This document shows positions 10,489 through 32,582 of a stretch of 37,356 nucleotides of DNA, piece by piece (the stretch's first letter is position 1; each line of letters starts with the position of its first letter). The position numbers and the translations under genes were made by a program. The notes under the pieces are model-generated. The model had not been told where the DNA came from, searched no databases, and saw only the letters and a program-made list of their open reading frames with translations. The DNA comes from Terriglobia bacterium (GTDB lineage Bacteria; Acidobacteriota; Terriglobia; Terriglobales; Acidobacteriaceae), in NCBI GenBank assembly GCA_020073105.1, contig JAIQFW010000010.1:1-37356 (forward strand). The letters run 5' to 3'.

Positions 10489-11227
10489 TGAAGAGATCCC
10501 GGTTGCCACAGGTGGAATCCTTTCGCGATCCCTAGGCTTCGGAATCGAGATGAAGCAGCAATGCGACGAAGTGCTAATCAGGACTGGAGCGCCGGGTGTA
10601 CTGCGGGAAAGCGGCTACGCTATGAGCGCCTTACACTAGTACAGAAGGGGCAACCACAGGCATTCTTGAAACTCGTTGTGATGCTCCGTTCACGCTATCC
10701 GCGTTATGAGAGAGCCGCTAACTTAGGCCCCGCGACAGTGGCGCTTGAGTTCACTCCTGCCATCCATTAGGCCATCCAGATCCCTTGTCGCGATCACCAC
10801 GGGCCGAATGGCGGTGCTGCGTCTGTTGGCCGCGAGCGGCATAGCACATATGGAATCACCCACCGCAATCACCCACGATCCATCCGTGTTCCCCGTATTT
10901 TCCAGTGTTTGGCAGTCCCACAGCAACCCTTGAAGTAGTTGTAAACACTGGAAATCCGAGTTCTGAAAAGGCTGGCGTCGGCGGTTCAACTCCGTCCCTG
11001 GCCACCATATCTTTCAGTGGTTTAGCAGACCAGCCCAAAATTTCACACCTGTGGTCTCTCACCGCCACTAACTTCCCAATTGCCGACGACTCGGGCATCA
11101 GGGCCAGAGGTGAGCTCTGCATTTTGCTCGCTGGTACACTGCCAATTTGGCCGATTGCGACGATTCGTCCCGGCCACGAGCCTGAGGTAGTCGCGGAGGA
11201 TACGGGAAGGCGATTGCTTTGAGGAAC
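10489..11227. other. Gene-poor island junction around attachment copy B
   Basis: About 740 bases contain no convincing gene. The stretch holds the 46-bp tRNA-derived repeat at 10,963-11,008. Just upstream of it is GTTGTAAACACT, which is similar to GTTGTAAATACT before copy C. I take these flanks to be related element ends. Short open frames here lack family resemblance and ribosome-binding sites. Confidence 0.55.
10963..11008 (+). repeat. Attachment-site repeat, copy B (tRNA-Phe 3' fragment)
   Basis: 46 bases identical to 1260-1305, from the anticodon loop to the base after CCA. The 5' half of the tRNA is absent, so this is not a functional tRNA. It marks the boundary between two tandem integrated segments. 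Confidence 0.85.
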
Positions 11228-14555: not shown

Positions 14556-14618
14556 CTGAAAAGGCTGGCGTCGGCGGTTCAACTCCGTCCCTGGCCACCA
14601 TCATTCCAAAGAACTTAG
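14556..14618 (+). repeat. Attachment-site repeat, copy C (tRNA-Phe 3' fragment)
   Basis: 63 bases identical to 1260-1322, including 18 bases beyond the tRNA CCA end. It marks the far edge of the accessory region; the operon with the HD-GYP gene begins 22 bases later. Confidence 0.87.
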
Positions 14619-14639
14619 TCGAATCCTGCTGTAGTCCGG

Positions 14640-16782: not shown

Positions 16783-16915
16783 TGGTTCCCCTCTAACCCG
16801 GCCGTGCAGGTGTGTCTTTGCTTCGGTCGAGTCTACGAAAAAGTTGAGATTCGCAACACTTACACCGGTAATTCGCATGCGATTACCTTCAGGGCACTGG
16901 CCAAGAAGCGGTCGC

Positions 16916-17542
16916 CTAGTCCAAGTCTTTGCGTATCAACGGCTTAGCCTGAACACCATAGAGGGGGAGGACAACTTCGTTGACTTCATCGCGGCTGATC
17001 GAAAGGCAAAGGCCGCCGGCAGCCTCAAACTCGAACTGAAACTCACCGAACTCGTTCGTGGAAGTCTGGGCCACAGGCAGCCTTCCCTCCTGTAAGCGAA
17101 CTGCTACTCCTTGTGCCACGCGGTCGGTCCCTGCCCGGTTCAGGACCTGCCCAACCAGGTGGGCACGAGTTGGCTCGGCCCGCGGTTCGAGGCGAAGATC
17201 GATGTAATAGTCATTGGTTTCAAACAGGAACTGTCGGGCCGTGACCGAACCCCGGATTCCCGCCGTTACTGGCTGAAGCATGGAATCAAAGACCAGGCGG
17301 ACGCCCCGGCTGACTATCGGGCCAATGGCGGCAAACTGGCTCCTGACGACGTGAACTGCGTCGTCGGGCGGCGCGAAAGTAGCTTCAGCGTCCGCGATGG
17401 AAAGCACCCCCTGCCAGGTCCGCAGCGTGTCTGAGCATTTCCTGCAACCACTATCGATGTGTTGTTGCATTGCCATTCGTGTTCTCGGTAACTTCGGGGT
17501 TCGCACAAAATCTATCCACTGCATGTCGCTGAAATGCTTCAC
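16916..17542 (-). CDS. Zinc-finger anti-sigma-like protein with carboxypeptidase-regulatory-like domain
   Basis: This 208-residue cytoplasmic-looking protein starts at GTG 17542. The homologue at 30,258 begins at the same point (EHFSIQDWIDFAR against KHFSDMQWIDFVR), fixing the start. Residues about 28-36 form H-x4-C-x2-C (HIDSGCRKC), like the zinc motif of many anti-sigma factors. The C-terminal 80 residues resemble an Ig-like carboxypeptidase-regulatory fold (LVGQVLNRAG, then NEFGEFQFEFE). No clear membrane helix is present. It follows TPR-CHAT by 123 bases. Because both copies lie next to a sigma gene of the same subfamily, an anti-sigma role is likely. That the CHAT protease cleaves it is my hypothesis. 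Confidence 0.7.
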   Translation of the reverse strand: MKHFSDMQWIDFVRTPKLPRTRMAMQQHIDSGCRKCSDTLRTWQGVLSIADAEATFAPPDDAVHVVRSQFAAIGPIVSRGVRLVFDSMLQPVTAGIRGSVTARQFLFETNDYYIDLRLEPRAEPTRAHLVGQVLNRAGTDRVAQGVAVRLQEGRLPVAQTSTNEFGEFQFEFEAAGGLCLSISRDEVNEVVLPLYGVQAKPLIRKDLD

Positions 17543-17665
17543 AGTTACCCCGCCTGGGAGCGAACCAGAACCTGACAGCGGTCACTCCAGCATTTTCTAA
17601 TCCTCGTGGAATAAGGGCAGGAACCCCGGCGAAAAATATAGGGCAGAGAGGAAAAATTTCGAGGC

Positions 17666-20530
17666 TTAGATCTTCCCCACGAGGACGAATGGAGCCCACT
17701 GATAACAATGGGGATAACGGGATCGCAGCTCTATCATGGCTTGCTTCAGTGCGATAGCATTGGTTTTCCCCTCTTGCAGCAGCCTGTAGAAAACAGCCAT
17801 GAACTCAGCCGTGCTTTTGTCGTGTACATCCCAGAGACTGAGTACCAAGGATTGCGCCCCGGCATGAAGCAGTCCGCGCGCAAGGCCAATTAGCTCATCG
17901 CCTGCCGCCACCACATTGAGACCGGTGGAGCATCCGCTCAAGGTGATTAACTCGACCGGCAGTTTGAGTTGGTAGAGATCAAACAGACTGAGGAAAGAAT
18001 CTCCGAGCCGAATGGCCGAGAACATCGGATTGTCCTGGCGAAAGCGGCCGTGCGTGGCGATGTGAATGACACGGCTGGTTGGCCCTTTGCTGCGCAAGAT
18101 TTGTTCACTGGCATCCGGACCGACGAACAACTCCGACCGGTCGAGAACATTGTTGAGCGCCTGGACCTCATCCAGAATTGCCGGGGCCTGGGGGTCCGGG
18201 ATGCCAAGGATCAGCGAGGTTCCGGTGGAATTCGTGGTTCTCGTCTGGCAAAGCGCAAAGATGCTGGCGCTGGGTGAATAAGAGAGCGTATAGCGGTCAA
18301 TCAAGTGTTGGGAACCGTCGTAGAGCGCATGGAACGGAACATAATGAAGCAAGCCGTGGGGCACGAAAACTAAATGACTGGCCTTCAGCTGGGGGGCAAC
18401 GGGCGCAATGAGTTCGCTATAGAGTTCCCTCAGGTGTGCCTGTGCCGCCTGGGCCAGAGAATCGTGGAAGGTCTCGAGGTATTGCGGATTCAGATGAAAC
18501 TTAGAAAGCTGAAACTGCAGCAGACGCAGTACATTGGCCACTCTGGTTTCCAGCGTGACGGGAAGAATCTCCAGGGTTTGTGGTCCGAGCAGGCAGACCA
18601 GGATGCGGTCGCGGACGCGGAAGTACTCTACCAGCAGAGTGTCCGCGGGAATCGTGGCGCGGATGCTGGCCATGGGAAGGTGGCTGGGCATCTGCAATCC
18701 GGCCTGGGTCGCGTCGGTAGGGGTCGCCTCCTGCAGGACGCGGACCAGCTCTTTTTCGCGCTGCCGCGCTTGTTTTTGAAGAGTTGCGATCCGTCCCTGA
18801 GAGTGCCGCTCCGGTTGAAGCTGTTCCCGTTCGATCAGGTTGTAGTACCAGTTCAGTTCCTCCCGCAAGTTCCGGATTGAACTCACCAGTTCGCTCTGGC
18901 CGGGAACATTTTCGGCGAGCGCCGGTGCTGGGCTGACGAACAGGTCCATCAAGCTGCGAGACTTGGCCTGCTCAATGTAGGTGAATGCCTCCTCGGATGC
19001 GGCCCGATCCTCCGGGCGAGCGAGACAGAGTTCAACCAGGTTCTCGTACACTTCCAGGCGGTTCTTGATGAAGGCAATTTTCAGCTCTTCTCCCCGCAGG
19101 TTGCCGCGAAGCTTCTCCAGGGCGTCACGCGCATTCTGATACGAGGCGTAGGATTGCTCGCGATCTCCTCTTACCGAGTAGACATTCCCCAGCAGCAGGT
19201 GCGCCTGATAAGTCAAGACGGGGGAGTCGAGTTCCGGAACTGCCAGGAGCGCGGCGTTGACGTGTTCGAAGGCCTGGTCGGCGTTATCCGTCCGCAGGGC
19301 GATTCGTGTCAGCAAGAGCTGGGCCAGCACAGCCTTGCTCGCCAGGTTCAGAGCGCAAAACGACTCCAGTGCCTCGCTGCAGTGGCGCCGTGCCTCGAAT
19401 AGCCGGCCCTCATTGAAAAATACCAAGGCCCGGTACAGATCGATGAGAGACGGCCAGACCTGGTTTTTCTCCTTAAGGAACATTTCCCGGGCCTGCGAAA
19501 AGAGCTTGAGCCCTTCAAAGCCGTGCCCCTGCTGGCTTGCCGCCATCGCCGAAAAGGCGAGGCACTTGGCGCTTTCATATCCCATGCCCAGCTTACGAAA
19601 GCCTTCATGGCCCTGTTGGGCAAGTTCCCCCGCCTCCGAGCTGAGGTTCAACTCCAGATAGAGCTCAGCCAGATCCAGGTTGCACAGGGCGTAGTGGTAG
19701 GCATCGCCCGTCCTCTTGGCATTCAGGCGCGTAGCTCGAAGCATTTCAATGGCCCGGCTATACTCACCTCGCTGGTAGTGAAGATAAGCAATGTTGTAGT
19801 CTGCCTGCGTGACCAGTGTGGTCATTCCATGCTCTGCACAGAACTGGCGGGCTTTCTGGTAGGAGTCCAGGGCCATCGAAAATCTATGCAGGCTGATGTA
19901 GCAGGTGGCGATGTTGCTGAGGACTGCCGCAATTCCTTCTGGATCCTGCTGCGCAGGCAGCCCCTGATACGCGCGCTCGTAGCAAGCCAGGGCGTCCCCA
20001 AAGCGGTCTTGCCGGTAGTAAATGTTGCCGATGTTGATGTCCAGGCGAGCCAGCCGCCATGTGTTTCCTTCATCCGCGAAGATCTTCCGCGCACGTTCCC
20101 CTGCGGCGAAAGCACGGTTGTACTCACCCATGAGGAGCATCGGCTGGATCGATCCACTCAGCGTACGCGCCGCTTCATGGGTGTCCCCGGCAGCGTCGAA
20201 GAGAGCGACAGCCTGCTCATGAAGATCCACTGCGGAGGCGTGCTCCCCCTTTGCGTAAAGAGCATTTGCCTTGGCGCGCATGGCCCGCGCCAGGGCTGGC
20301 TTATCGTCGAGTTTGTGGGCAATGCTCAGGGCGGCGTCGGCCATGCGGAGCGCCTGCTGAACGTCCACCCGGACTTGCTCTCGGACCCGGTCGGTGAGTT
20401 CGGTGACGACCGCGGAGCGAAGCAGGGAACGATTGCGCGACAGGAACGCTGCTCGCCGGGCCTCGTCATCGAGAGCCAAGAGCTTTTCTAGAGCCAGTGG
20501 CTTGTCGGGTGGACGACGCGGCGCGCTCAC
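17666..20530 (-). CDS. TPR-CHAT caspase-like protease
   Basis: The 954-residue protein has a long array of about ten tetratricopeptide-type helical pairs (residues about 40-480; for example NIGNIYYRQDRFGDALACYE and NIAYLHYQRGEYSRAIEML), a coiled-coil linker (about 560-620) and a C-terminal CHAT domain. The dyad is intact: His827 in HIATHGRF and Cys867 in LSGCSTGL. I choose GTG 20530, which overlaps the sigma stop as GTGA and has GAAAGG upstream; an ATG at 20575 would give a 49-base overlap. TPR-CHAT proteases are activated by partner binding, as in Craspase, where the partner is gRAMP and the target is Csx30, an inhibitor of a sigma factor. Here it is coupled to a sigma gene and followed by a zinc-finger regulator, with no CRISPR genes. 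Activation by peptide or protein binding to the TPRs is inference. Confidence 0.93.
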   Translation of the reverse strand: MSAPRRPPDKPLALEKLLALDDEARRAAFLSRNRSLLRSAVVTELTDRVREQVRVDVQQALRMADAALSIAHKLDDKPALARAMRAKANALYAKGEHASAVDLHEQAVALFDAAGDTHEAARTLSGSIQPMLLMGEYNRAFAAGERARKIFADEGNTWRLARLDINIGNIYYRQDRFGDALACYERAYQGLPAQQDPEGIAAVLSNIATCYISLHRFSMALDSYQKARQFCAEHGMTTLVTQADYNIAYLHYQRGEYSRAIEMLRATRLNAKRTGDAYHYALCNLDLAELYLELNLSSEAGELAQQGHEGFRKLGMGYESAKCLAFSAMAASQQGHGFEGLKLFSQAREMFLKEKNQVWPSLIDLYRALVFFNEGRLFEARRHCSEALESFCALNLASKAVLAQLLLTRIALRTDNADQAFEHVNAALLAVPELDSPVLTYQAHLLLGNVYSVRGDREQSYASYQNARDALEKLRGNLRGEELKIAFIKNRLEVYENLVELCLARPEDRAASEEAFTYIEQAKSRSLMDLFVSPAPALAENVPGQSELVSSIRNLREELNWYYNLIEREQLQPERHSQGRIATLQKQARQREKELVRVLQEATPTDATQAGLQMPSHLPMASIRATIPADTLLVEYFRVRDRILVCLLGPQTLEILPVTLETRVANVLRLLQFQLSKFHLNPQYLETFHDSLAQAAQAHLRELYSELIAPVAPQLKASHLVFVPHGLLHYVPFHALYDGSQHLIDRYTLSYSPSASIFALCQTRTTNSTGTSLILGIPDPQAPAILDEVQALNNVLDRSELFVGPDASEQILRSKGPTSRVIHIATHGRFRQDNPMFSAIRLGDSFLSLFDLYQLKLPVELITLSGCSTGLNVVAAGDELIGLARGLLHAGAQSLVLSLWDVHDKSTAEFMAVFYRLLQEGKTNAIALKQAMIELRSRYPHCYQWAPFVLVGKI

Positions 20531-21111
20531 TTGAAGCCTTTCTCTTCCAGCAACTGGCGTAGTTTCTTCAGGCATCTTCCCCGGATAAAGCCGACAGAAC
20601 CGGTGGCCAGCTGAAGTTCCTTCGCCACCTCCTCATAGGGACGGGGCGGATCCTCAAAAAACAGCATAGTGACCATCTGGTTGCATCGCGGCGGAAGGGC
20701 AGAAATCGCTTCCCGCACACCCTGTTCGCGCTGGATCTGATAGAACACCTTCTCCGGCAATTCTTCAGGACTGCCTTCCAGTCTCTCCTCCATATCCTGG
20801 GCATCGCCGAGAAGATCCAAACGATCTTTTTTCCAGCGCAGGCATTGGTGATAGCTGGTCTGCATCAGCCATTTGGGCAGAGCTTTCGGCTCACGCAGCT
20901 TGGGCAATCCTGCGAGCAATTCGACGCACACTGCCTGGAAAATATCGGCGGCTTCGTCACGGGTCAGACCAAACTTGATGGGAATGGAGAAGATGAGATT
21001 TTTGTATTTCTCAATTAAAGCAAACCAAGCATCTTGATTGCCCTTGCAGCACTCGCGAATCAGCCGCTCGTCCGGCCAAGCCAATCGCCGGACGGCGCTT
21101 CCCAGACTCAC
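20527..21111 (-). CDS. ECF-like sigma-70 family factor coupled to TPR-CHAT
   Basis: The 194-residue protein has region 2 (RLIRECCKGNQDAWFALIEK, ADIFQAVCVELLAGLPKLRE, KWLMQTSYHQCLRWK) and region 4 (ISALPPRCNQMVTMLFF, EEVAKELQLATGSVGFIRGR). The DNA-binding helix ends in RCLKKLRQLLEE. It is closely similar along its length to the sigma at 29,499. Its GTG start overlaps the stop of the peptide-binding protein as GTGA, and its own TGA overlaps the CHAT GTG. Double coupling predicts matched synthesis of transporter, sigma and protease. I cannot assign an ECF group. Confidence 0.9.
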   Translation of the reverse strand: MSLGSAVRRLAWPDERLIRECCKGNQDAWFALIEKYKNLIFSIPIKFGLTRDEAADIFQAVCVELLAGLPKLREPKALPKWLMQTSYHQCLRWKKDRLDLLGDAQDMEERLEGSPEELPEKVFYQIQREQGVREAISALPPRCNQMVTMLFFEDPPRPYEEVAKELQLATGSVGFIRGRCLKKLRQLLEEKGFK

Positions 21112-22883
21112 GGTTTTTCACCGGGGCGAGCTCCGTTCCCGGGGATGAAATAGAGCTGCTCAACATTCCACAAGGTATTTGGGTCCAGGATCGCCGGTTT
21201 GAAATTGCCCAGATTCTTCCTGGCGCCTACCAGAATGTTGGGCGTAGCCAGAAAGACGAACGGAACATTGGCCGCGATGATCTCCTGCGCCTGGTCATAG
21301 AGGTGTTTGCGCTCTTTATACTTGAGCTGTACCATCTGCTTCTGCATGAGCTGATCGATCAGCGCCTCCCAGTCGGTCGCAGGTCTGGCTTCGCCCAGGC
21401 GCCAGAGATGCGTGCCTCCATTGGACAGCCATACATTCATCTCCGGGTTTGGATCAGCATCGCCGCCGCCCAGCGCCATAATGCTGGCCTCGTAATCATA
21501 GGTCTGAAAGACCCGGTCAAGGAGCGCCCGGAACTCCAACGGAACCACGTGCACGTTCATCCCAAGTTTGCCCAGGTCGTCCTGAATCAGGGTCGCCATC
21601 TTCATGCGCTGAGCATTCGACGTGCTGGTGATGACTGAAAACTCCACAGCGACGCCCTGCCGATCGATCAGCTGTCCGTCACTGCGCCAGGAAAACCCTT
21701 CAGATTTAAGCAGTTCGCGGGCCCGGTCAAGAGAGTACGGAGTGTGGGGCAGCATTTGGTCAGTCCACAACTTGTTTGACGGACTCACATTGCCCCAGAG
21801 CGCGGCTCCATGTCCGGTGTAGACCAGCTTCACGATGGAGTCGCGGTCAATGGCGGAGGATACTGCCTGACGAAATTTCACAGCCTGAAACCACGCCTGT
21901 TTGGCTGCGATGCTGTCGAGGTTCTTCGACCTGAGATCGTTGAGATTGAATACTAGGAAGTCGTACTCGAGGCTTGGCCCCAGGTCAAAGAAGTCCGTCC
22001 CACGAGTCGCCACATCTTTGGAAAGCAGCGCGTAGTTTTCAGCGCTGAGGCGGCTGATGATGTCGGTCTCACCAGCCTGGAAACGAATGGCCTGCGCATC
22101 TTCGTTCCCCACAAACAGAAACACCAACTCGTCGAGGTAGGGAAGGCGATTCTTGCTCCGGTCAGCCTTCCAGTAGAAGGGGTTCCGCTCCAGGACGATT
22201 CTCTGGCCGGGAATGTACTGCTTTACCCGGAAGGGTCCCATGCCTGCAATCTCGGCGGGCGGGGTGTTCAAGGTCAACGCCTGAGCAAACTGGCCTGCTT
22301 TGTAGGGCCTTTCCAGGAGGTGCCGCGGCATCATGGCCAAGCTGTCGAAGATTCGCTCGGCGGCCGCATACGGTTGCGCCAGCGTGAAACGCACGCTGTA
22401 TTGATCAATCTTCTGCACCTTGATCGGCTTTCCGCCCACAACCAGCAAGTCGCGCTGCGGGGAATGGACGTTCTCGTCGAGGTAAACCTGAAAGGAGAAG
22501 ACCACATCGTCGGCGTCAAAAGGTTGACCATCTGAGAATCGCAGACCATGACGCAGCTTGACGGTGAATACACGGCCATCGTTGGACACACTCCAAGCTT
22601 TGGCCAATGCCGGCTCCGTATTCTGAGTCCACCGGTTGATGTGAATCAGATCCGCTGTCAGCCGGCCGATGACTTCACGCGAAGGCGCATCCGCTGCTGT
22701 GACCGGATTCAGCGTCTTGGGCTCACTCCGTTGTGCCAACACCAGCGTGCCACCATAACGACCGATCTGGTTGTCCGTCACTAGCAGATCTTCGCCATGT
22801 TGGGGCGGCTGGGGAGCAGAGGAAGCGAAACAAGCATGGCCGCAGGCCAGCAGAAGGGTGGCAAAACAACCCCAACGATGCAT
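21108..22883 (-). CDS. Peptide ABC transporter substrate-binding protein (SBP_bac_5)
   Basis: The 591-residue protein belongs to the oligopeptide/dipeptide-binding family. It has an N-terminal export signal (TLLLAC at residues 9-14 may be a lipobox, otherwise Sec cleavage after ASSA). Family features include GGTLVLAQRSEPKTLNPVTA, LRHGLRFSDGQPFDADDVVFS, GMGPFRVKQYIPGQRIVLERN, FRQAVSSAIDRDSIV and a C-terminal receptor lobe. It should capture peptides in the periplasm and deliver them to the two permeases. It lies 23 bases after the permease gene. Its TGA overlaps the sigma GTG, a rare direct link of a nutrient transporter to a sigma factor. Confidence 0.92.
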   Translation of the reverse strand: MHRWGCFATLLLACGHACFASSAPQPPQHGEDLLVTDNQIGRYGGTLVLAQRSEPKTLNPVTAADAPSREVIGRLTADLIHINRWTQNTEPALAKAWSVSNDGRVFTVKLRHGLRFSDGQPFDADDVVFSFQVYLDENVHSPQRDLLVVGGKPIKVQKIDQYSVRFTLAQPYAAAERIFDSLAMMPRHLLERPYKAGQFAQALTLNTPPAEIAGMGPFRVKQYIPGQRIVLERNPFYWKADRSKNRLPYLDELVFLFVGNEDAQAIRFQAGETDIISRLSAENYALLSKDVATRGTDFFDLGPSLEYDFLVFNLNDLRSKNLDSIAAKQAWFQAVKFRQAVSSAIDRDSIVKLVYTGHGAALWGNVSPSNKLWTDQMLPHTPYSLDRARELLKSEGFSWRSDGQLIDRQGVAVEFSVITSTSNAQRMKMATLIQDDLGKLGMNVHVVPLEFRALLDRVFQTYDYEASIMALGGGDADPNPEMNVWLSNGGTHLWRLGEARPATDWEALIDQLMQKQMVQLKYKERKHLYDQAQEIIAANVPFVFLATPNILVGARKNLGNFKPAILDPNTLWNVEQLYFIPGNGARPGEKP

Positions 22884-22906: not shown

Positions 22907-23938
22907 TCAGATTGAGTCAGATTGTAACCGTTCATGAATCGCATTCGCTACCTTGAGGTAACCAAGAGAGATAATTACCAGCGCCAAGGCCGGTGCAAAC
23001 ATCCACCAGTAGGAAGCCAGCACGTTATATTGCTGCAGGTTCGCCAGCAAGTTCCCCCAGCTGGACACGGGCTCGCTTACTCCCAACCCAAGAAATGACA
23101 GCGTGACCTCCGCCACTATGTATTGGGGCACAAGCAGTGCGGCCTGGGTGAGCAGGACGCCGTATGTGTGGGGTAGAACGTGGCGGCGGAGAATGTAAGA
23201 GTCTGTTGCCCCGAAGCCCCGGCTGGCAGTTACATATTTTCGACCCTTCGCACTGAGGACAATGCCTCGAACCAGCCGCGCAGGGCGCGCCCAGCCGATC
23301 GTTCCAATCACCGCCACCAACAGAAAGAACGTCTGCGTCGGGCTGATGTGCAACGGCAAGAATGAGCGCACAGCCAGCAGCAGATAGAGCCACGGCAAAA
23401 CCAGGAACAGTTCCACCAGGCGCATAGCAGATTCGTCAATCCAGCTTCCATAGAATCCCGAGATGCAACCGACCAGCAACCCCAGGAACAACGAGATTCC
23501 AGTGGCTAGGAGACCTGCAGCGAGGGAGATTTGTCCGCCATACATGATTCTCGAGAACTGGTCGCGTCCGAAGCCGTCACTGCCCGCCAAGAAAATCCGC
23601 GCGGGACCCTCCACTCCAAAGAGATGAACATCGGATCGCACCAGGCCTGCAATGGTGTATTCGGGGCCACGAACAAAAAATTGCACAGGGTACTCTCTGC
23701 CGCGAGCTTCCTCGTATTCATTGAAGCCCTCGGGGCGAACTGTCCATTGGTAGATGAAAGGACGAAGGTGGAAATGTCCGCGCGCATCCGCAAAATGAAA
23801 TCGGGTGGGAGGGACGAACGGGAAATCCCGGTTCTGAGTCGCCGGGTTATAAGGTGCAATAAAGCCCGCCAGGAGTATCGCCAGGTGCAACGCCACCAGG
23901 AGCATCAGCGCGGCAACGATCTTCTGTTTCTTCCTCAT
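22907..23938 (-). CDS. Peptide ABC transporter permease (DppC/OppC type)
   Basis: The 343-residue membrane protein has an N-terminal helix (IVAALMLLVALHLAILLAGF), a periplasmic loop of about 100 residues that is longer than usual, and five further helices. The EAA-type coupling loop is ASRGFGATDSYILRRHVLPH followed by the conserved LTQAALLVPQYIVAEVTLSFLG segment and GLGVSEPVSSWG, typical of OppC. The ATG overlaps the preceding permease stop by 4 bases (ATGA). Confidence 0.92.
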   Translation of the reverse strand: MRKKQKIVAALMLLVALHLAILLAGFIAPYNPATQNRDFPFVPPTRFHFADARGHFHLRPFIYQWTVRPEGFNEYEEARGREYPVQFFVRGPEYTIAGLVRSDVHLFGVEGPARIFLAGSDGFGRDQFSRIMYGGQISLAAGLLATGISLFLGLLVGCISGFYGSWIDESAMRLVELFLVLPWLYLLLAVRSFLPLHISPTQTFFLLVAVIGTIGWARPARLVRGIVLSAKGRKYVTASRGFGATDSYILRRHVLPHTYGVLLTQAALLVPQYIVAEVTLSFLGLGVSEPVSSWGNLLANLQQYNVLASYWWMFAPALALVIISLGYLKVANAIHERLQSDSI

Positions 23939-24903
23939 ACCTTACCGAGCCTGACCCGCGGGTCCACGGCCACTAGCAAAATGTCCGCGAGGATACCCCC
24001 AAAAATCATGAAAAGTGTGGACGCCATGACCGCCCCGACCACAACATAGATGTCGCGGGCCAGGGCAGCATCGAGCAAGAGCGGTCCCAAGCCGGGCCAG
24101 CCTGTAATCACCTCTACCAGCAGCGAGCCACTCAGAAGCGCACCAACCGATAACCCCAACAAAGAACTCAAGGGGTTTGCGGCGGCCGGCAGCGCATAGC
24201 GGAATAGGAGCCTCGCGCCTCCGATGCCATGTGCACGTGCTGCCTGAACAAACGGGGCCTGCAATACTTCAATCATGCTGGCACGGATGTGCCTCACCAA
24301 AAGCGGCAGGCTGGCAAGCACAAGGGTCGTGACTGGAACAACCAGATGCAGGGCCAAGTCGAACAATTTCGCTTGTACTCCAAGGCCGCCGAAGTCCACG
24401 GAGGCCATGCCTCCCACCGGCAGGGTATGGATGCGGACCGCCCAGTAAAGAAGGACCAGGGCAATGACGAGTTCCGGCACGGAAAGAAGCAGAGACGTAC
24501 TTGCCATGCTAAGGCGGTCGTCCCATCGGCCGCGCCGGTTGGCGGTCCAAACTCCGAGTGGGACAGCGATCAGCCATGCCAACAAAGTGGCCAGCCCAGT
24601 CAAGATCAGAGTGTTGCGCGCGCGCACCAGGAGCAGACTCCTCACTGGGCAGTTGTACGCGAACGAATAACCCCATTCTCCGCGGAGAACCGACTCGACC
24701 CAGTGGCCATATCGCCACACCAGGGGCTGGTCAAATCCGTAACGGGCACGCAACCCGGCAACCGTACTCGGGGAAATCTGCGGATTGAGCTTCATTTCGT
24801 CGAAGAAGTTGCCCGGAGCCGCGGCACTCAAGGCAAAGCAGAGAATGGACACCCCGATCAGCAGCAGCAGCCCGTGAATGACGCGCCTTTCCAGGTATTT
24901 CAC
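23935..24903 (-). CDS. Peptide ABC transporter permease (DppB/OppB type)
   Basis: The 322-residue protein has six predicted helices, the OppB N-terminus (RVIHGLLLLIGVSILCFALS), LRARYGFDQPLVWRYGHW and a coupling loop QAARAHGIGGARLLFRYALP. The GTG start shares its first G with the TAG stop of the ATPase gene upstream and has GGAGG 6 bases before it. It forms the membrane channel with the next permease. Confidence 0.92.
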   Translation of the reverse strand: MKYLERRVIHGLLLLIGVSILCFALSAAAPGNFFDEMKLNPQISPSTVAGLRARYGFDQPLVWRYGHWVESVLRGEWGYSFAYNCPVRSLLLVRARNTLILTGLATLLAWLIAVPLGVWTANRRGRWDDRLSMASTSLLLSVPELVIALVLLYWAVRIHTLPVGGMASVDFGGLGVQAKLFDLALHLVVPVTTLVLASLPLLVRHIRASMIEVLQAPFVQAARAHGIGGARLLFRYALPAAANPLSSLLGLSVGALLSGSLLVEVITGWPGLGPLLLDAALARDIYVVVGAVMASTLFMIFGGILADILLVAVDPRVRLGKV

Positions 24904-25754
24904 TACCGGCCTCCCGCCTGTGCGGTGCGGAAATTGGACCGCAACAGACGAACCGAAGCCAGCAACTCACGAGTGTGATGATGCCGGGGATTGGCAAAAA
25001 CCTCCCGCCGCGGCCCCTGCTCGACGATTTTGCCTTGTTGCATCACCGCAACAAAATCAGCGATCTGCCCAACCAGGCCGAGATCATGCGAAATCAGCAG
25101 GTATGTCAGGGAGTGGGCCTTCTGAAGGTCCAGAAGAAGGTTCAATATTTGGGCTTGCGTCGAGAGGTCCAACCCCGAGACAGATTCATCCAGAATCAAG
25201 AAAGCTGGTTTCAGCGCAATCGCACGGGCGATCGCCAGCCGCTGCCGCTGTCCGCCACTGAATTCCAACGGACGACGGTCTGCCCAGTTCGGAGACAGCC
25301 CGACCTCTTCCATCAATTCGCAAGCCCGCGAATGCAGCCTCGCACCGCTTTCTCGCCGCTGAACTTCTAGCGGTTCCGCAATAATCTGCGCTGCCGTAAA
25401 CCCGGGATTCAAAGCTCCTGCGGAATCCTGGAAGACCATTTGGATTTTGGGCCGCAAGGCCTTCAGCTCTCGGTCGCTCGAGCGCGATACCTCCTTCCCC
25501 TCAAACCAGATCTCGCCGCGATCTGCCTTCTCCAGCATTGCCAAACAACGGGCCAGCGTCGACTTTCCAGAGCCCGACTCGCCGACCAGAGCAGTCAGAC
25601 TGGCCGGGGCAATGTCGAACTCGACATCAACCAGCGCATCTATCACGAAGCTCTTATAGGAGAACGGTGCACGTTGCACGTACCTCTTGCTCAACCCGGC
25701 CGCTTTAGCAAGTGCTGGCTTGAGTGCATGCCGGGCTGTTTCTTCAATTCTCAT
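24903..25754 (-). CDS. Peptide ABC transporter ATP-binding protein (OppF type)
   Basis: The 283-residue ATPase has Walker A GESGSGKST, Q-loop QMVFQDSAGALNP, signature FSGGQRQR, Walker B AFLILDESVSGLD and the H-loop ISHDLG. The start at 25754 overlaps the upstream stop by 11 bases. An in-frame ATG at 25811 would overlap by 68 bases and is less likely. It pairs with the second ATPase to power peptide import. Confidence 0.92.
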   Translation of the reverse strand: MRIEETARHALKPALAKAAGLSKRYVQRAPFSYKSFVIDALVDVEFDIAPASLTALVGESGSGKSTLARCLAMLEKADRGEIWFEGKEVSRSSDRELKALRPKIQMVFQDSAGALNPGFTAAQIIAEPLEVQRRESGARLHSRACELMEEVGLSPNWADRRPLEFSGGQRQRLAIARAIALKPAFLILDESVSGLDLSTQAQILNLLLDLQKAHSLTYLLISHDLGLVGQIADFVAVMQQGKIVEQGPRREVFANPRHHHTRELLASVRLLRSNFRTAQAGGR

Positions 25755-26748
25755 AGTTGAAGCAACTGACACGACGACCCTCTTCCGGTACAACCTCACG
25801 TGGAGATTCACTCTGGCAAAGTTCTGTTCTTGCGAAGCAGCGCGATTCGAAAATGCAGCCTCGAGTGGAGCGATCGGAGTGGGACAAGCTGCCAGGAAGC
25901 GCGGGCAGATGTTGTCCGCGAGTTCGGTCCGGATCCTGCAGGGACGCCGGTACTAACTGCAGGAGCCCCTTGGTGTATGGGTGTAGCGGCTGGCGGAAAA
26001 CTTGTGGGACGGGGCCTTCCTCAACAATGCGGCCTGCGTACATCACGATGACACGATCCGCAAAGCCAGCCAGGAGTGCCGGATTATGTGTAATAAAGAT
26101 GATCGCGCAACCGAATTTCCGGTTGACTTCCCGCAATACGTCCAAAATTTCCGCTTGCCGCGTCGCATCCAGGGACTGAGTGGGTTCGTCCGCAATCACC
26201 ACATCCGGCCGGCAGGACAGGGCTTGCGCGATTGCCACCCGATGCAGCTCTCCCCCGCTCAATTGGTGCGGATACGCCCCATAGATCCGATCTCCTTGGG
26301 AGAGCCCGACATCTCGCAGAATTGCCTCCACTTGTTGCTTGCGAACTTTCCTTGGTCCTGGTCGGTGTGCCCGAAGGACTTCTGCGATTTGGTCGCCCAC
26401 GCGCATCACTGGGCTCAACGAGAGTCCAGGGTCTTGAAAGATCATTGCTATCCGAGTGCCGCGAACGGTTCCCCACGCTGACTCGTCGAACTGCAACAAG
26501 TCTTTGTTCTCGAAGAGCATTGAACCTGTGATGTTTGTCGATACTGGCAGCAACCCGAGGATTGAAAGAGCGAGCGTGCTCTTCCCAGATCCTGATTCCC
26601 CCAATATCCCAACGGTCTCTCCACGTCTGATGTCAAACTCAACCCCCACTAAAGCAGGGCTGGATTGCTCCTGTGAGGCGGCATACCTTACGGTCAGCCC
26701 ATGGATGCGCAGCAGCGCCGAAGCACACGAAGAATGGGCACACGTCAT
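25744..26748 (-). CDS. Peptide ABC transporter ATP-binding protein (OppD type)
   Basis: The 334-residue ATPase has Walker A GESGSGKST, MIFQDPGLSLSP, signature LSGGELHR, Walker B VVIADEPTQSLD and a C-terminal oligopeptide-transporter extension with cysteines (GCIFESRCFARTELCQ) typical of OppD/DppD, where they can bind an Fe-S cluster. ATG 26748 is used; a TTG one codon upstream is also possible. No strong ribosome-binding site is seen. It is the first gene of the minus-strand operon. The 267 bases upstream should hold the operon promoter, which I could not identify. Confidence 0.9.
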   Translation of the reverse strand: MTCAHSSCASALLRIHGLTVRYAASQEQSSPALVGVEFDIRRGETVGILGESGSGKSTLALSILGLLPVSTNITGSMLFENKDLLQFDESAWGTVRGTRIAMIFQDPGLSLSPVMRVGDQIAEVLRAHRPGPRKVRKQQVEAILRDVGLSQGDRIYGAYPHQLSGGELHRVAIAQALSCRPDVVIADEPTQSLDATRQAEILDVLREVNRKFGCAIIFITHNPALLAGFADRVIVMYAGRIVEEGPVPQVFRQPLHPYTKGLLQLVPASLQDPDRTRGQHLPALPGSLSHSDRSTRGCIFESRCFARTELCQSESPREVVPEEGRRVSCFNYEN

Positions 26749-26880
26749 CAATGCTTTTGAGGACCCCTCACTAGTACGTATTCAGCAGATTGTGACGGAC
26801 ATTCTTTGAGACGATAAGTTACCGAGGTAATGACGAAGCGAGCGGTCTGGCCGGATTAGGAGGGTCAATGCCCACAGCTG

Positions 26881-27015: not shown

Positions 27016-27867
27016 TCAAGAGATCGCGCCAGAAAGGAATGGAGGCGGAGGTACGGCTACGGGTCCGGAGCGGAACCGATCGTTCGCCTCCCGGAATCTC
27101 CACGCAATCGACTCCGGCAAGCTCTCTTCCAGCCTTTCTGCCAGCCACTCCTGCAGATCACATCGTTGTTCGAGAGGTAGAAGAAGAAATCTCAGACCGG
27201 CGCGACCTCGTTCGCCCCGCCAGCAGGTCTCACACACGGCCCTGAAGTTCTCCGTCCGGCCCGGCAACATGAATTCCACGAGTATCCGCATTTTAGGGAC
27301 GAGTTTGGCTGGTACGTACGCGATCTCCATCCCCCCTTCGCTGATGTTTACGGTGTGGGATTGTGCCTGGCGCATATCGACCCTCCGCATCACGATGCGG
27401 GTCCGGACCCGGCAACGGAAGTAGCGCCGGCGTTCGCGTACCACCCATCCATAGCCGGCGGTTAGCGTACGGCTCAATGAATCCGCCGATAATGGTCTCT
27501 CGAGCGTAAAGTTGCTACCCGCACAGTATGCCAACGCGAGGTCGCTCTTACTGCGAGTAATTGCGATGGCTGGAGCAGTCCGGTTTGACGGGGAAATGCG
27601 CATCTCTCCCAGGATACCGGGGGCCTGTTCGCTCAAGCCAAAGTCCACCGTAACCGCGTCGAACTTCTTGGTATGGAGCACATGCCGGGCACTGGCAACG
27701 TCAACACAAACCTCGGTGGCAATGGCGAGTCTCGCCATGGCATCGGTGATTTGCTCAATGGTTGCCGGGTCCCGGGACACGAGCAGCGAATGGGCGAAGG
27801 AGGGTGCTGTCGGTAAGCTCATCACTCTCACACCTAGACTTCTCCGTAACAGAGGCGTCGATACCAT
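27016..27867 (-). CDS. Degenerate receiver plus PilZ domain protein
   Basis: The 283-residue protein has an N-terminal receiver-like fold (SLLVSRDPATIEQITDAM, FDAVTVDFGLSEQAPG) in which the acidic pocket is poorly kept. A C-terminal PilZ domain follows with the c-di-GMP motifs RRRYFRCRVRTR (RxxxR region) and NISEGGMEI (N/DxSxxG), then GRAGLRFLLLPLEQRCDLQEWL. It probably binds c-di-GMP and relays the signal through protein contacts. GAGGAA precedes the ATG at 27867. With the HD-GYP and EAL proteins of this window it forms part of a c-di-GMP circuit (inference). Confidence 0.85.
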   Translation of the reverse strand: MVSTPLLRRSLGVRVMSLPTAPSFAHSLLVSRDPATIEQITDAMARLAIATEVCVDVASARHVLHTKKFDAVTVDFGLSEQAPGILGEMRISPSNRTAPAIAITRSKSDLALAYCAGSNFTLERPLSADSLSRTLTAGYGWVVRERRRYFRCRVRTRIVMRRVDMRQAQSHTVNISEGGMEIAYVPAKLVPKMRILVEFMLPGRTENFRAVCETCWRGERGRAGLRFLLLPLEQRCDLQEWLAERLEESLPESIAWRFREANDRFRSGPVAVPPPPFLSGAIS

Positions 27868-27933
27868 TTGGTTCCTCGATTCTTTGGGTGTCTCGGCGTG
27901 CCGAGAGGCAAGTCGGTTGTCGCACGGAATGGT

Positions 27934-28338
27934 TCAGTGCCAGCCTATTTCCCTCAGTTGATTCGTCTTGGCTAAGACAACTTCGATTGTCTTGACCACC
28001 CCCTCTGAATTGTTCTCCAGAAGGCCGTCCGTCTTCTCGACAAACTCAACCGCCCCCTCATCCATCAGCTTCGCCGCATTCGTCTGGGAGATGCCGCTCA
28101 AAACCACCACGGGAATGTGCTTCGTCCGGGGATCCCGCTTAAGTGTCCGCAGGACATCCTGACCCGCGATTTTTGGCAGCATCATATCCAGGACGATGAG
28201 ATCGGGATTTTCCTGGCGAGCGATCCGCAAACCTTCTTCGCCGTCTCTGCCGCTGGTGACCTCGTATCCAGCCTTGATGAATGCTCTTTCGTGAATGAGC
28301 CGGAGCACCCTGCTGTCTTCGATCAAGAGTATCTTCAT
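27934..28338 (-). CDS. Single-domain response regulator
   Basis: This 134-residue CheY-like receiver has the acidic pair in LLIEDSRV, the phospho-acceptor Asp in LIVLDMMLPKIAG, VVVLSGIS with the conserved Ser/Thr and the lysine in FVEKTDG. There is no output domain. It lies about 65 bases upstream of the PilZ gene on the same strand; the kinase is unknown. Confidence 0.92.
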   Translation of the reverse strand: MKILLIEDSRVLRLIHERAFIKAGYEVTSGRDGEEGLRIARQENPDLIVLDMMLPKIAGQDVLRTLKRDPRTKHIPVVVLSGISQTNAAKLMDEGAVEFVEKTDGLLENNSEGVVKTIEVVLAKTNQLREIGWH

Positions 28339-29319: not shown

Positions 29320-29502
29320 ATGACCGTGGCAGAATGCCGGGCGCACGGCTCACCCGAGGCGATTCCTTCCTCTACCTGTAACGCCACCGGAAATTGTTCA
29401 GGCAAGAGTCTTTCCTCGGCGAACATGCGATCTGCGCTCGTTTTGGGAAAGGCACCTGACGCGCCCCGCCTCGCCAGATCTGGGTCGGCGGTGCGGGCAT
29501 GA
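29320..29502 (+). CDS. Possible small leader ORF coupled to sigma
   Basis: A 60-codon frame starts at ATG 29320 with GAGGAGA 7 bases upstream. It ends in a TGA that overlaps the ATG of the sigma gene (ATGA at 29499-29502). The peptide (two CxxxxxC-like spacings, SSTCNATGNCSG, then basic residues) has no recognisable family. The ribosome site and the 4-base overlap suggest a translated leader; codon content alone does not prove it. Confidence 0.3.
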   Translation: MTVAECRAHGSPEAIPSSTCNATGNCSGKSLSSANMRSALVLGKAPDAPRLARSGSAVRA

Positions 29503-30086
29503 ACGTGGGGCAGAAAAGGGCAAAAGAAACTCGGGAGGAGCAATGGTCCGATTCCCGACTGATACAGGAATGCCTTAGGGGTAATGAGTCAGCCTGGTCG
29601 GCTTTGATTGACAAGTACAAGAATCTGATTTTTTCTATCCCTCTTAAGTATGGTTTTTCTCAAGAGGATTCGGCGGACGTCTTCCAATCAGTTTGCATGG
29701 ACTTGTTAGCGGAGCTGCCGCGCATTCGTGAACCCAACGCCCTGGGAGGCTGGCTCATCCAGGTTACTCGAAACAGGTGCTTTCATCGAAAGCAGGAACA
29801 ACTACACCACCCTACGGAAGAGATTGACGAGCAAAAGCTGTCCGAAGATAGCGAGCGAGCCGATGCCCTCATCTCCCAAGTGCAGGAGGAGCAACATTTG
29901 CGCCAGGCGCTGCTGGATCTCTCCCCCCGCTGCCGACAGCTTGTGCAGTTCCTCTTCTTCGAAGTGCCGGCCCGCCCTTACCAGGAAATCGCGAGGGAAC
30001 TGGGCCTGGCGACCGGCTCAATCGGTCTGACACGCAGACGATGCCTCGAAAAGTTGCGGCAACGCCTGGAAAAGGGGGCGCCATAA
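29499..30086 (+). CDS. ECF-like sigma factor, second copy
   Basis: This 195-residue protein is a clear homologue of the sigma at 20,527. Region 2 contains DSRLIQECLRGNESAWSALI, DKYKNLIFSIPLKYGFSQED and ADVFQSVCMDLLAELPRIRE. Region 4 contains LSPRCRQLVQFLFFE and LGLATGSIGLTRRRCLEKLR. It lies upstream of its own anti-sigma-like partner but, unlike the first copy, has no CHAT protease beside it. The ribosome site is weak, consistent with coupling to the short frame upstream. Confidence 0.9.
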   Translation: MNVGQKRAKETREEQWSDSRLIQECLRGNESAWSALIDKYKNLIFSIPLKYGFSQEDSADVFQSVCMDLLAELPRIREPNALGGWLIQVTRNRCFHRKQEQLHHPTEEIDEQKLSEDSERADALISQVQEEQHLRQALLDLSPRCRQLVQFLFFEVPARPYQEIARELGLATGSIGLTRRRCLEKLRQRLEKGAP

Positions 30087-30257
30087 GGGCGCTTGTCTAC
30101 AGGCAGGCATTCCCGGCCGCGGGTTGGCGGTGGTTACCACCAGGTGACCTGAGGAGACGTATTTTTGCCCTGGCAGTATTTTTGGGACGGATCCCCACCC
30201 TTATTCCCCAGACTAGTATGTTTGATGCCAACTCCCCTGTTCGCCGGTAGGAATGCC

Positions 30258-30878
30258 ATGGAACATTTTTCGATACAGGATTGGATTGATTTTGCTCGCC
30301 AGACTGAAATGCCTGAACGAGCGAAGGCCATGCAAAAACACCTCGACGAAGGGTGCGTCCGGTGCTCGAAGAATGTCGGAGTCTGGAGGCAAATTGTGGA
30401 GTTTGCAAAGCAAGAACCGAATCAGCAGCCGCCGGAAAGCTCAGTTCATGTCGTGAAGGCAAGCTTTGCGCTGCGAAAAATCAGGTCACTTGAAACCGGG
30501 AGGGTTGAACTGGCGAAGCTGGTGTTTGACAGCGCCCTCGCGGCCGCAGCCAGCGGTTTTCGCGGCAGTGCTGCCAGCGCGAGACAGCTGCTTTATAAAT
30601 CGGGTAGTGTCTGTATCGATATGTACATTCAACCCAAACCAGGATCGGAGTCGATGGTCTTGACCGGTCAACTGATGGACTCGATGATGCCAACTCACGG
30701 AATCAGCGGCGTCCCGGTGAGCCTCCTGTGCGACGGAAATACCTTATCGCGCAAGCAAACCAATGACTTCGGCGAGTTTGATTTCGGATTTGAAGCGCCC
30801 CACGATGTGCAGCTCGCATTTGGGTTGGACAACAACTGCAGAACGTTGGTCGTCCCGGTTCCTGACACCGCCGCGTAG
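30258..30878 (+). CDS. Zinc-finger anti-sigma-like protein, second copy
   Basis: The 206-residue protein is homologous along its length to the one at 16,916: EHFSIQDWIDFARQ, then H-x4-C-x2-C (HLDEGCVRC), SSVHVVKASFAL, LVFDSALAAAASGFRGS and ARQLLYKSGSVCIDMYI, with a C-terminal carboxypeptidase-regulatory-like fold (NDFGEFDFGFEAP). No membrane helix is evident. TAGGAA lies 6 bases before ATG 30258. The gap of 171 bases from sigma is longer than in a coupled pair, yet the pairing is repeated in both loci, supporting a functional link. An anti-sigma role is inference. Confidence 0.7.
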   Translation: MEHFSIQDWIDFARQTEMPERAKAMQKHLDEGCVRCSKNVGVWRQIVEFAKQEPNQQPPESSVHVVKASFALRKIRSLETGRVELAKLVFDSALAAAASGFRGSAASARQLLYKSGSVCIDMYIQPKPGSESMVLTGQLMDSMMPTHGISGVPVSLLCDGNTLSRKQTNDFGEFDFGFEAPHDVQLAFGLDNNCRTLVVPVPDTAA

Positions 30879-31169
30879 GTCGAAGCTGCCCTGTCACGGT
30901 GCGGCGTTTACTACGGGTAGTTGGCCGTCGGAGGATCCCTGAGGGCTGTAGCTTGCCTCTTCCCGGAGGATCGGGGTCCGTGGTTGGGGCCCCTTCCGTG
31001 GCTTTGTCGAATACCCTCTTCCCCTGTTACCAAGGTGATCTGTCAGGCCCTCAAGGAGAAGTTAGACTGTCAGGAACAGTGACCGTGGGTTCGGACTCTG
31101 TGAGTTCGTTCAGGGGCATCCGGTGTGGCTCCTGGCCGGCTTCGCCTGAGTCGGGGGATTAACAGTTGT

Positions 31170-32582
31170 ATGTCGAAGAAGACGATCGTCATCGGCGAAG
31201 ACGACCCCGCCATCCGCTGCGCGCTCTCCGAGTTCCTGCAATCCCTCGGCTACGGAGTCGTCGAAGCCGGCAATTGCGAGAGTATCAAGCGGGTGTTTAG
31301 GACATCCTGCCCCGATGCAGCGGTGTTGGACTACTCCCTTCCGGATGGAACGGCGCTGGATCTCTTGCCTCACCTGAAGCAGACCTACCCCTCGGTGCCG
31401 TTGATTGTCCTCACCGGCAATGGGACGATTCCACTGGCGGTGGAAGCCATCAAAGAAGGGGCGGAGCAGTTCTTAACCAAGCCAGTCGAGATGTCCGCCA
31501 TTGCCGTAGTCCTAGAGCGCGCTTTGAAGAACCAGCGCAACTATCAAAAACAACTTGCCGGACAGGTGCGTCAAGAACGAGAGAACGTCAATCCCTTCCT
31601 GGGAGAGAGTGACGCCATCCGCCAGCTCGCTGAGCAGGCGGAACGCGTGTGCGCCAGTGACTACCCCGTGTTGATCGCGGGTGAAACCGGGTCCGGCAAG
31701 GGGGTCTTGGCAAGGTGGTTGCATGACCATAGTCCGCGAGCCGAAGAACCTTTTGTCGACCTGAACTGCGCGGGCTTCGGGCGGGAGTTGTTGGAAACCG
31801 AGCTTTTCGGACACGAAGTGGGGGCCTTCACCGGTGCGGTGCAACGCAAGATAGGTCTCCTGGAAGTGGCCCAGCGCGGCACCGCGTTCCTGGATGAAAT
31901 CGGAGATATGGATCTGCAGGTGCAACCCAGGCTCCTGAAGATTCTGGAAGAGAAGCGCTTTCGCCGGTTAGGGGATGTTCAGGAACGGCAGCTGGACGTA
32001 AGGCTGATCGCAGCCAGCCATGAGGATCTAGCCCAGCTCGCGCGGGCGAAGAAGTTCCGCAGCGACTTGTATTTTCGTGTCAGCACAGTGGTTTTGCGGG
32101 TGCCGCCCCTGCGTGAAAGGCTGGAGGATATTCCGGTCCTGGCGCAACAATTCTTCGAGCGCATTGCGGTGGACCTCGGCCGCCTGCATCTGACTCTGTC
32201 CGATCGCGCGGTAAAGACCCTCACCGCCTATGCTTGGCCGGGGAACGTCCGGGAGCTGAAGAACGCGATGGAAAGAGCAGTCTTGCTTGCCAAGGAAGAC
32301 ACCATTCAACCCCGGGACCTGCAACTGGAGTTCAAGCCTGAGGAGGTTTTCGAAGATGGGTCAGCGCTTACCTTCAAGGAAGCTCAAAGCCTGCACATCC
32401 AGAAAGCCTTGCGTGCAGAAGGCGGCAACATTGCCCGAGCATCCATCCGCCTGGGAATGACCAGAAGTTCGCTGTATAACAAGCTGAAGGCATTCGGCTT
32501 AAGCGCCGCAAATTACCATAACGATCAGAAGCCTGTGGAACAACTCCCGGACCCACTGCCCGTGCGGGAAACCGGGAGATAA
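31170..32582 (+). CDS. NtrC-family sigma-54-dependent response regulator
   Basis: The 470-residue protein has a receiver (IVIGEDDPAIRCAL, phospho-Asp in AVLDYSLPDG, VLTGNG, lysine in FLTKPVE), an AAA+ domain with Walker A GETGSGKGVL, sigma-54 loop GAFTGAV, Walker B TAFLDEIGD and FRSDLYFRVST, and a C-terminal Fis-type HTH (GNIARASIRLGMTRSSLYNKL). The start is set at ATG 31170 because the receiver begins there. The cognate kinase is not adjacent. It ends within a strong hairpin and is convergent with the EAL gene. Confidence 0.94.
   Translation: MSKKTIVIGEDDPAIRCALSEFLQSLGYGVVEAGNCESIKRVFRTSCPDAAVLDYSLPDGTALDLLPHLKQTYPSVPLIVLTGNGTIPLAVEAIKEGAEQFLTKPVEMSAIAVVLERALKNQRNYQKQLAGQVRQERENVNPFLGESDAIRQLAEQAERVCASDYPVLIAGETGSGKGVLARWLHDHSPRAEEPFVDLNCAGFGRELLETELFGHEVGAFTGAVQRKIGLLEVAQRGTAFLDEIGDMDLQVQPRLLKILEEKRFRRLGDVQERQLDVRLIAASHEDLAQLARAKKFRSDLYFRVSTVVLRVPPLRERLEDIPVLAQQFFERIAVDLGRLHLTLSDRAVKTLTAYAWPGNVRELKNAMERAVLLAKEDTIQPRDLQLEFKPEEVFEDGSALTFKEAQSLHIQKALRAEGGNIARASIRLGMTRSSLYNKLKAFGLSAANYHNDQKPVEQLPDPLPVRETGR

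Follow-up and report, generated by a model that had tools for sequence, protein, structure and literature searches.

The stretch of DNA analysed here, referred to below as the window, comprises 37,356 nucleotides from the genome of a soil bacterium of the Acidobacteriota (5.14 Mb in 308 contigs, 97.6% complete). Our main subject is a pair of genes on its forward strand. The first, sig2 (29499-30086), encodes an ECF-type sigma factor of 195 aa, counted from its ATG and recognized by TIGR02937. The second, reg2 (30258-30878), encodes a protein of 206 aa that we predict, from a family profile, an AlphaFold2 model and its ligand residues, to be a soluble zinc-type anti-sigma factor, with helices up to about residue 73 and an Ig-like domain from about residue 83. 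Its start is best placed at the ATG at 30258; the mechanically called reading frame opens at a TTG at 30165. The 171 bp between the two genes hold a promoter-like element, TATTTTT-N14-CCCTTATT (30177-30205, forward strand), found by motif search. The gene that follows reg2 encodes an NtrC-type regulator (31125-32582, forward strand), identified by Pfam and in relatives, which serves below as a marker of a shared locus. A sequence-only reading had described this pair as lacking a CHAT protease gene, and indeed none flanks it.

On the reverse strand the window also contains a complete module, which we call type 1. In the direction of transcription it consists of an ABC importer with two permeases and two ATPases (22907-26751, including an oppD-like reading frame with ABC_tran and oligo_HPY domains), a peptide-type solute-binding protein (21108-22883; SBP_bac_5, 278.5 bits) directly upstream of the sigma factor gene sig1 (20527-21111; TIGR02937, 64.2 bits), a TPR-CHAT protease (17666-20575; CHAT, 209.6 bits) that has both the histidine motif HIATHG and the cysteine motif SGCST, a second copy of the promoter-like element (17610-17638, motif search), reg1 (16916-17542), predicted to encode the anti-sigma factor of the module from its likeness to reg2, the family profile and its ligands, and, directly after reg1, an S8 subtilase (15349-16878; Peptidase_S8, 132 bits) with a signal-like hydrophobic stretch at its N-terminus, as judged by eye. 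An RR-PilZ protein and a single-domain response regulator, both assigned by Pfam (27016-28338, reverse strand), separate this module from sig2. Two further observations concern this region. Firstly, a SQSTVAVLD-like peptide is repeated between the catalytic regions of the subtilase, and also occurs in the subtilases of the relative loci L115, L143, L127, L119, L128 and L042; it is possibly a source of a signal peptide. Secondly, the 3' end of a tRNA-Phe gene (1229-1304) is repeated twice downstream, with 46 identical nucleotides (1229-1332, 10963-11035 and 14556-14628), which suggests that one or two elements integrated at the tRNA gene and end just before the type-1 module.

The homology between the two pairs that had been noticed from the sequence holds: sig2 and sig1 are 50% identical over 183 aa (E 8e-68 in a single comparison), reg2 and reg1 35% identical over 201 aa (E 3e-39), and both regulators carry the H-x4-C-x2-C motif, as HLDEGCVRC and HIDSGCRKC. 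Both sigma factors belong to the ECF-type sigma-70 family, sig2 scoring 81.3 bits and sig1 64.2 bits with TIGR02937 (cut-off 42.9); Sigma70_r2 is above its cut-off in both, while Sigma70_r4 scores 24.4 in sig1 and 23.9 in sig2 against a cut-off of 24.1. A whole-genome search found no third regulator at E <= 0.01 and no third sigma factor of this subfamily, sig1 and sig2 scoring 388 bits each and the next protein 53 bits. The genome has three CHAT genes, and that of the window is the only one of the module kind: compared with the full-length window protein, which scores 2152 bits with itself, the other two reach 69 and 114 bits, and no such sigma factor or regulator gene was found in the stretches fetched around them.

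What kind of protein is the regulator? Pfam and NCBIfam see almost nothing in reg1 and reg2, the Pfam matches being weak (CarboxypepD_reg for reg1, E 0.0083 and under the cut-off; SdrD_B for reg2, E 0.18). Among relatives, zf-HC2 reaches E <= 0.1 in 7 of the 58 close ones and in 11 of the 42 that make up the broader set, and CarboxypepD_reg does so in 19 of the 58. As a single query against the PDB, reg2 returned no anti-sigma factor and nothing else of relevance, and the profile of the close family reached RsiW only at E 0.037; the profile of the broader family found RsiW at E 3.2e-6, DdvA at 8.4e-5 and RslA at 0.0016. In the AlphaFold2 model of reg2 (mean pLDDT 88.9) four helices are followed by a beta-sandwich, and the latter aligns with 4zjg (Z 9.2, 77 residues, 1.9 A); the Ig-like C-terminus proposed earlier is supported by model and fold match, Pfam by itself giving weak matches. 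Because the fold search with the whole model probed the Ig-like part only, residues 1-82 were also modelled alone (pLDDT 88.3). Of the 18 Foldseek rows that these residues gave at E <= 10, 15 were anti-sigma domains, the best with a weak E of 0.37; VIA aligned them with ChrR (Z 9.4, 71 residues, with a large rmsd of 10.4 A), RslA (Z 7.3, 55 residues, 3.4) and RsiW (Z 5.5, 70 residues, 4.0). By fold, the predicted zinc domain matches anti-sigma domains weakly but consistently. It shows the three-helix bundle and fourth helix of the anti-sigma fold, the fold E-values being weak and the profile E-values strong for the broad profile only.

The ligand pattern reads H-x24-H-x4-C-x2-C in this family, and each of H3, H28, C33 and C36 is present in 57 of the 58 close relatives. 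The sole exception for all four is L159, a locus with a complete module in an assembly of Steroidobacteraceae (Pseudomonadota). In the broader set of 42 rows, position 3 is Cys or His in 37, and the signature is missing in four. The published ZAS signature is H/C-x24/25-H-x3-C-x2-C in the part of the source consulted (PMC6432622). The family resembles the zinc-type class I factors ChrR, RsrA, RslA and RsiW in its helical anti-sigma domain; its ligand pattern comes near theirs but differs from the published form in spacing, which is x4 in 46 of the 58 relatives, x3 in eight and x5 in three; both window regulators keep the four ligands and the x24 interval, with x4 in place of x3. It also differs from ChrR in having an Ig-like rather than a cupin-like C-terminal domain. 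According to the consulted part of another source, class I anti-sigma domains with and without zinc are mixed within known groups, and helix 1 of the domain contacts region 4 of the sigma factor (PMC7406223). No membrane anchor was seen by eye in the regulator, and no reading frame was matched by both the sigma and the regulator profile, as a fused protein would be. The reading that suits the regulator best is that of a soluble anti-sigma factor of the zinc type, in which a four-helix anti-sigma domain precedes an Ig-like domain. As a separate observation, residues 1-48 of PDB 8rot chain B, a 'CHAT domain-containing protein', match the regulator profile at E 0.002; this chain may combine an anti-sigma domain and a CHAT protease in one protein.

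Loci of relatives were fetched in two ways: by the regulator, which was present in 33 of the 396 genomes sampled from the phylum, and by the sigma factor, for which the best 80 of 178 confirmed relatives were kept. Among the latter 80, a TPR-CHAT gene directly follows the sigma gene in 72 of the 74 loci with at least 300 nt downstream (6 dropped), and the two loci without it, L094 and L095, are the closest relatives of sig2. For the same best 80 of 178, the 54 loci with at least 6 kb downstream (26 dropped) have the regulator in 51 and an S8 subtilase in 45, and the solute-binding protein of a peptide-type ABC importer adjoins the sigma gene in 56 of the 66 loci with at least 2.5 kb upstream (14 dropped). 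With the regulator as bait, 36 of 51 loci remained after 15 shorter than 19 kb were dropped: the sigma factor is present in 35, a CHAT domain in 35, the subtilase in 31 and all three in 30. In L041, which was scored as lacking CHAT, a CHAT-like gene runs off the fetched stretch. The gene order in the lineage of the window is importer, sigma, CHAT, regulator and subtilase, and the importer genes keep the order of the window in relatives; elsewhere in the phylum the order sigma, regulator, CHAT and subtilase is frequent. The earlier proposal that the sigma factor and the zinc-finger protein belong together is upheld by the mutual recovery of the two baits, by agreeing trees and by the anti-sigma profile and weak fold matches. 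Searches of plasmids gave no match to reg2. A reading as a defence system was tried and rejected: PADLOC hit only the subtilase and CHAT protein of the type-1 module and the NtrC-type protein, its best matches being CARF_AAA_HTH models through the AAA part, and neither a sigma factor nor a regulator was matched. The regulator gene occurs five times in G844, a genome of the same class, and three of these genes lie together in about 6.6 kb of contig 122.

Phylogenies of both families, which the sequence-only reading had put forward as a check, were built from 123 sigma rows and from 66 of 107 regulator rows, 41 being left out. The two trees agree and place both window pairs alike, in different clades. 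Pair 1 groups with L143, L115, L110, L127 and L119, all full modules, and with L149, which is cut off after the start of CHAT. Pair 2 groups, with support 100/99, with the CHAT-less loci L094 and L095 and with L097, a full module; in the sigma tree this clade also includes L096, where a type-2 sigma gene and CHAT are followed by the contig end. Trees in which the window proteins were forced together were rejected (AU p 4.9e-8 for sigma and 3.8e-6 for the regulator), so a local duplication of pair 1 does not account for pair 2, and the description of pair 2 as a second copy fails in that sense. That the pairs are not sister copies had gone unseen in the first reading, as had the peptide ABC importer and subtilase of the full module.

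The surroundings of these relatives indicate what pair 2 once belonged to. In L097 an importer, a type-2 sigma factor, TPR-CHAT, the regulator and a subtilase lie beside counterparts of the window's NtrC-type gene (72% identical) and EAL gene (60%), and L096 has the same layout up to CHAT beside the same two genes. L094 and L095 have the NtrC (76%) and EAL genes, and of the module only sigma and regulator remain. In the window, pair 2 has two response-regulator genes on one side, with the type-1 module beyond them, and the NtrC-type gene on the other. This NtrC-type protein is 72-76% identical to its counterparts in L094-L097 and 66% identical in L119. The shared locus rests mainly on the NtrC and EAL genes, because the RR-PilZ counterparts in L094-L097 are only 25-27% identical. 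L119 has an intact type-1 module; all that lies beside its NtrC gene is a fragment of a regulator without the zinc domain, and no sigma gene was found at this type-2 locus. The full type-2 module of L097, and that of L096 as far as it extends, adjoins the NtrC and EAL genes of this locus, from which we conclude that the absence of CHAT arose by reduction. Pair 2 is thus the reduced form of a separate module lineage; in the window, L094 and L095 nothing but sigma and regulator is left of that module. One loss of CHAT and two losses are both possible: a single loss, with AU p 0.059 for sigma and 0.126 for the regulator, is neither rejected nor favoured. No remnants of CHAT were seen by eye in three-frame translations of the gap between sigma and regulator in the window, L094 and L095. 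The pair is still under selection: between L094 and L095, dN/dS is 0.12 in the sigma gene and 0.24 in the regulator gene, where it is 0.10 over the anti-sigma domain and 0.35 over the Ig-like part. In a sample of 380 genomes from which G621 and G668 were absent, the type-2 regulator profile found type-2 regulators in this genome and G582 only, plus a fragment in G441. G621, G582, G668 and G695 were equated with the genomes of L094, L095, L097 and L096, respectively, by identical match coordinates, and G432 with that of L143 by identical neighbourhood hits.

The two pairs have the promoter-like element in common. Alignment of the DNA upstream of the regulators gave TATTTTY-N14-CCCYTATT with fixed spacing (a first pattern with extra fixed bases had given no match), and both window regulators are preceded by the form TATTTTT-N14-CCCTTATT. 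When one mismatch is allowed, the whole 5.14 Mb genome contains the element twice, before reg1 and before reg2. Both sites went into defining the pattern, and what carries information is therefore the absence of a third; the reversed control pattern is absent from the whole genome. When 12 upstream regions of the window were compared with shuffles, a better match was seen for reg1 and reg2 only, and no element was found before sig1, sig2, CHAT or the importer. At up to two mismatches the element stands before the regulator in both of the two window rows, in 40 of 58 rows from GTDB, in 29 of 47 from the family and in 1 of 52 from the phylum; the GTDB and family rows overlap, and 0 of 159 shuffled sequences matched with up to three. 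The single phylum row, against the high share of GTDB and family rows, shows that the element in this form belongs to the wider lineage of the window rather than to the phylum. Within the fetched loci, 3.14 Mb in all, a script assigned 73 of 91 matches to the regulator, 2 to the subtilase and 16 elsewhere, with some overlap since several loci are the same contigs; when read individually, the matches in L270 and L121 also precede a regulator, and those in L106 and L167 precede the importer ATPase gene. Of 396 family genomes, 15 contain the strict form, not always at the regulator, and 13 of these 15 belong to the 54 that bear the sigma factor; its reversed control occurs in 4 of the 396. With the four discovery genomes excluded, the strict element is present in 9 of 50 sigma-bearing genomes versus 2 of 342 others (p 2e-7). 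Its geometry, TATTTT, 17 nt and CTTATT, with purines favoured 5-6 nt downstream, fits a promoter read by a sigma factor, and we infer that sig1 and sig2 use it.

Taken without any step that involves CHAT, the reading of sig2 and reg2 as a sigma and anti-sigma factor, reduced from a second module and sharing an element with the first, is in our view probably correct. That second module would once have had a peptide importer, sigma factor, TPR-CHAT, anti-sigma factor and subtilase, inherited separately from the type-1 module. In the resting state the N-terminal zinc domain of reg2 would keep sig2 bound, as the predicted fold and the known binding mode of the family suggest, and removal of the anti-sigma factor would allow the sigma factor to start transcription at TATTTTT-N14-CCCTTATT. 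Since the element occurs only before reg1, with the subtilase gene behind it, and before reg2, both pairs, if these sigma factors do use the observed element, would feed one very small shared regulon with negative feedback. The removing step would most likely be cleavage by TPR-CHAT, and in the case of pair 2 the cleaving protease would have to be the type-1 CHAT acting in trans. The signal may be peptides, as the importer and subtilase hint.

Action of the type-1 CHAT (17666-20575) in trans on pair 2 is a tentative proposal, which we hold to be almost as likely as its opposite. Both the shared element and the distribution among genomes fit one CHAT for both pairs. Sigma genes without CHAT occur at 12 places in 11 of the 54 sigma-bearing family genomes, as tallied by eye from fetched stretches of which some are short, and all 11 genomes also hold a CHAT-bearing sigma gene; in the 42 genomes with a single sigma gene, CHAT adjoins it in 40 and lies about 7 kb away in G509, and the remaining one, G533, is cut off. 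The type-2 CHAT is kept in L096, L097 and their sister L099, whose genomes show one sigma gene, and is lost where a type-1 module is present, namely in the window, L094, L095 and, in decayed form, L119 (Fisher p 0.1 with five and 0.03 with seven, the genomes taken as having no type-1 module being only 76-86% complete). Two findings count against action in trans: the type-1 and type-2 CHAT proteins are only 45% identical, and eight of the 12 CHAT-less places are lone sigma genes of one genus without a regulator. In the fetched stretches of these eight (L220, L237, L243, L248, L249, L256, L259 and L263) there is no regulator or CHAT, and their genomes have a full module; L248 and L259 have the element close by on the opposite strand. 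A fuller scheme, in which peptides made by the subtilase and imported would activate TPR-CHAT, and one CHAT would cleave the zinc/Ig-type anti-sigma factors of two long-diverged pairs that share a private promoter, is speculative and rather doubtful. The same doubt attaches to what it would represent, a CRISPR-free, caspase-like transcription switch in Acidobacteriota with a crossed two-sigma circuit.

It is possible, though in our judgement unlikely, that pair 2 is self-sufficient in the manner of ChrR, reg2 itself sensing a signal, either at the zinc site or by a ligand of the Ig-like domain, without any CHAT. ChrR has the same plan of an anti-sigma domain and a beta-rich C-terminal domain, the type-2 Ig-like domain is well kept in the CHAT-less members (53-56% identity), and three genomes have the pair without an adjoining CHAT. 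However, such independence sits poorly with the CHAT gene that adjoins this sigma gene in 72 of 74 loci among the best 80 of 178, and with the CHAT-bearing module found in every genome that has a CHAT-less member.

Many ECF systems are self-activating. The element is placed differently, before the regulator genes and neither sigma gene of the window, as would suit a site for a different factor, or an RNA feature, rather than a promoter of these sigma factors; we think this improbable, given the two boxes at fixed spacing, the purines 5-6 nt downstream and the way its presence tracks the sigma factor across genomes. A takeover of pair 2 by the phosphorelay encoded around it (RR-PilZ, response regulator and NtrC) is quite improbable: such genes flank the pair here and lie near it in L094 and L095, but these neighbours also accompany the full type-2 module of L096 and L097, which means that they predate the loss of CHAT, and the RR-PilZ likeness is low (25-27%). 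That pair 2 is a decaying relic without function, as the remains at the same locus in L119 might suggest, is the least probable of these alternatives, since in the window the frames are open and the zinc ligands and the element intact, and dN/dS between L094 and L095 is far below 1.

Our preferred reading, a sigma factor and its anti-sigma factor derived from a CHAT-containing module, can be set beside two known systems. The first is ECF54, a group with a model member from the actinobacterium Geodermatophilus. According to the part of the review consulted (PMC8999054), its sigma genes lie near genes for CHAT, subtilase and carboxypeptidase proteins, and the proposed mode of control is proteolysis with no anti-sigma factor involved. 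The likeness of sigma factors with CHAT, subtilase and carboxypeptidase-type neighbours is drawn from gene neighbourhood and not from the sequence model of the group; such a neighbourhood is found for pair 1 and the family, and pair 2 has only the regulator. Whereas the consulted part of the review lists no anti-sigma factor, the carboxypeptidase-regulatory-like neighbour looks like one here, and our results suggest that it is the anti-sigma factor of these sigma factors. Relative to that part of the review and to the literature searched, what is new here is the reading as an anti-sigma factor, together with the element and the reduced lineage. The second is the type III-E CRISPR system of Csx29, Csx30 and CASP-sigma, in which a TPR-CHAT protease cleaves an inhibitor of a sigma factor, as described in the consulted part of the source (PMC10028731). 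Here too a TPR-CHAT protease, a predicted sigma inhibitor and an ECF-type sigma factor are encoded together, and by analogy the module may work like it in outline. However, the window CHAT scores 53.5 bits with NF041237 (cut-off 300) and thus falls outside the Csx29 family, and there are no regularly spaced repeats of a CRISPR array in the window, for which reasons we do not file the module as a type III-E CASP member; no Cas7-11 was found among the 20 window proteins scanned with Pfam. The inhibitor and signal are not alike either, and cleavage in the present module is a proposal.

With just two sites, the element could serve as a very specific reporter, and the lineage without CHAT provides a natural test of action in trans by the protease. 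If our reading is true, a group of sigma factors reviewed as having no anti-sigma factors would have one, and the logic of TPR-CHAT, inhibitor and sigma factor seen in a rare CRISPR subtype would be present in many Acidobacteriota as well, there as a CRISPR-free switch.
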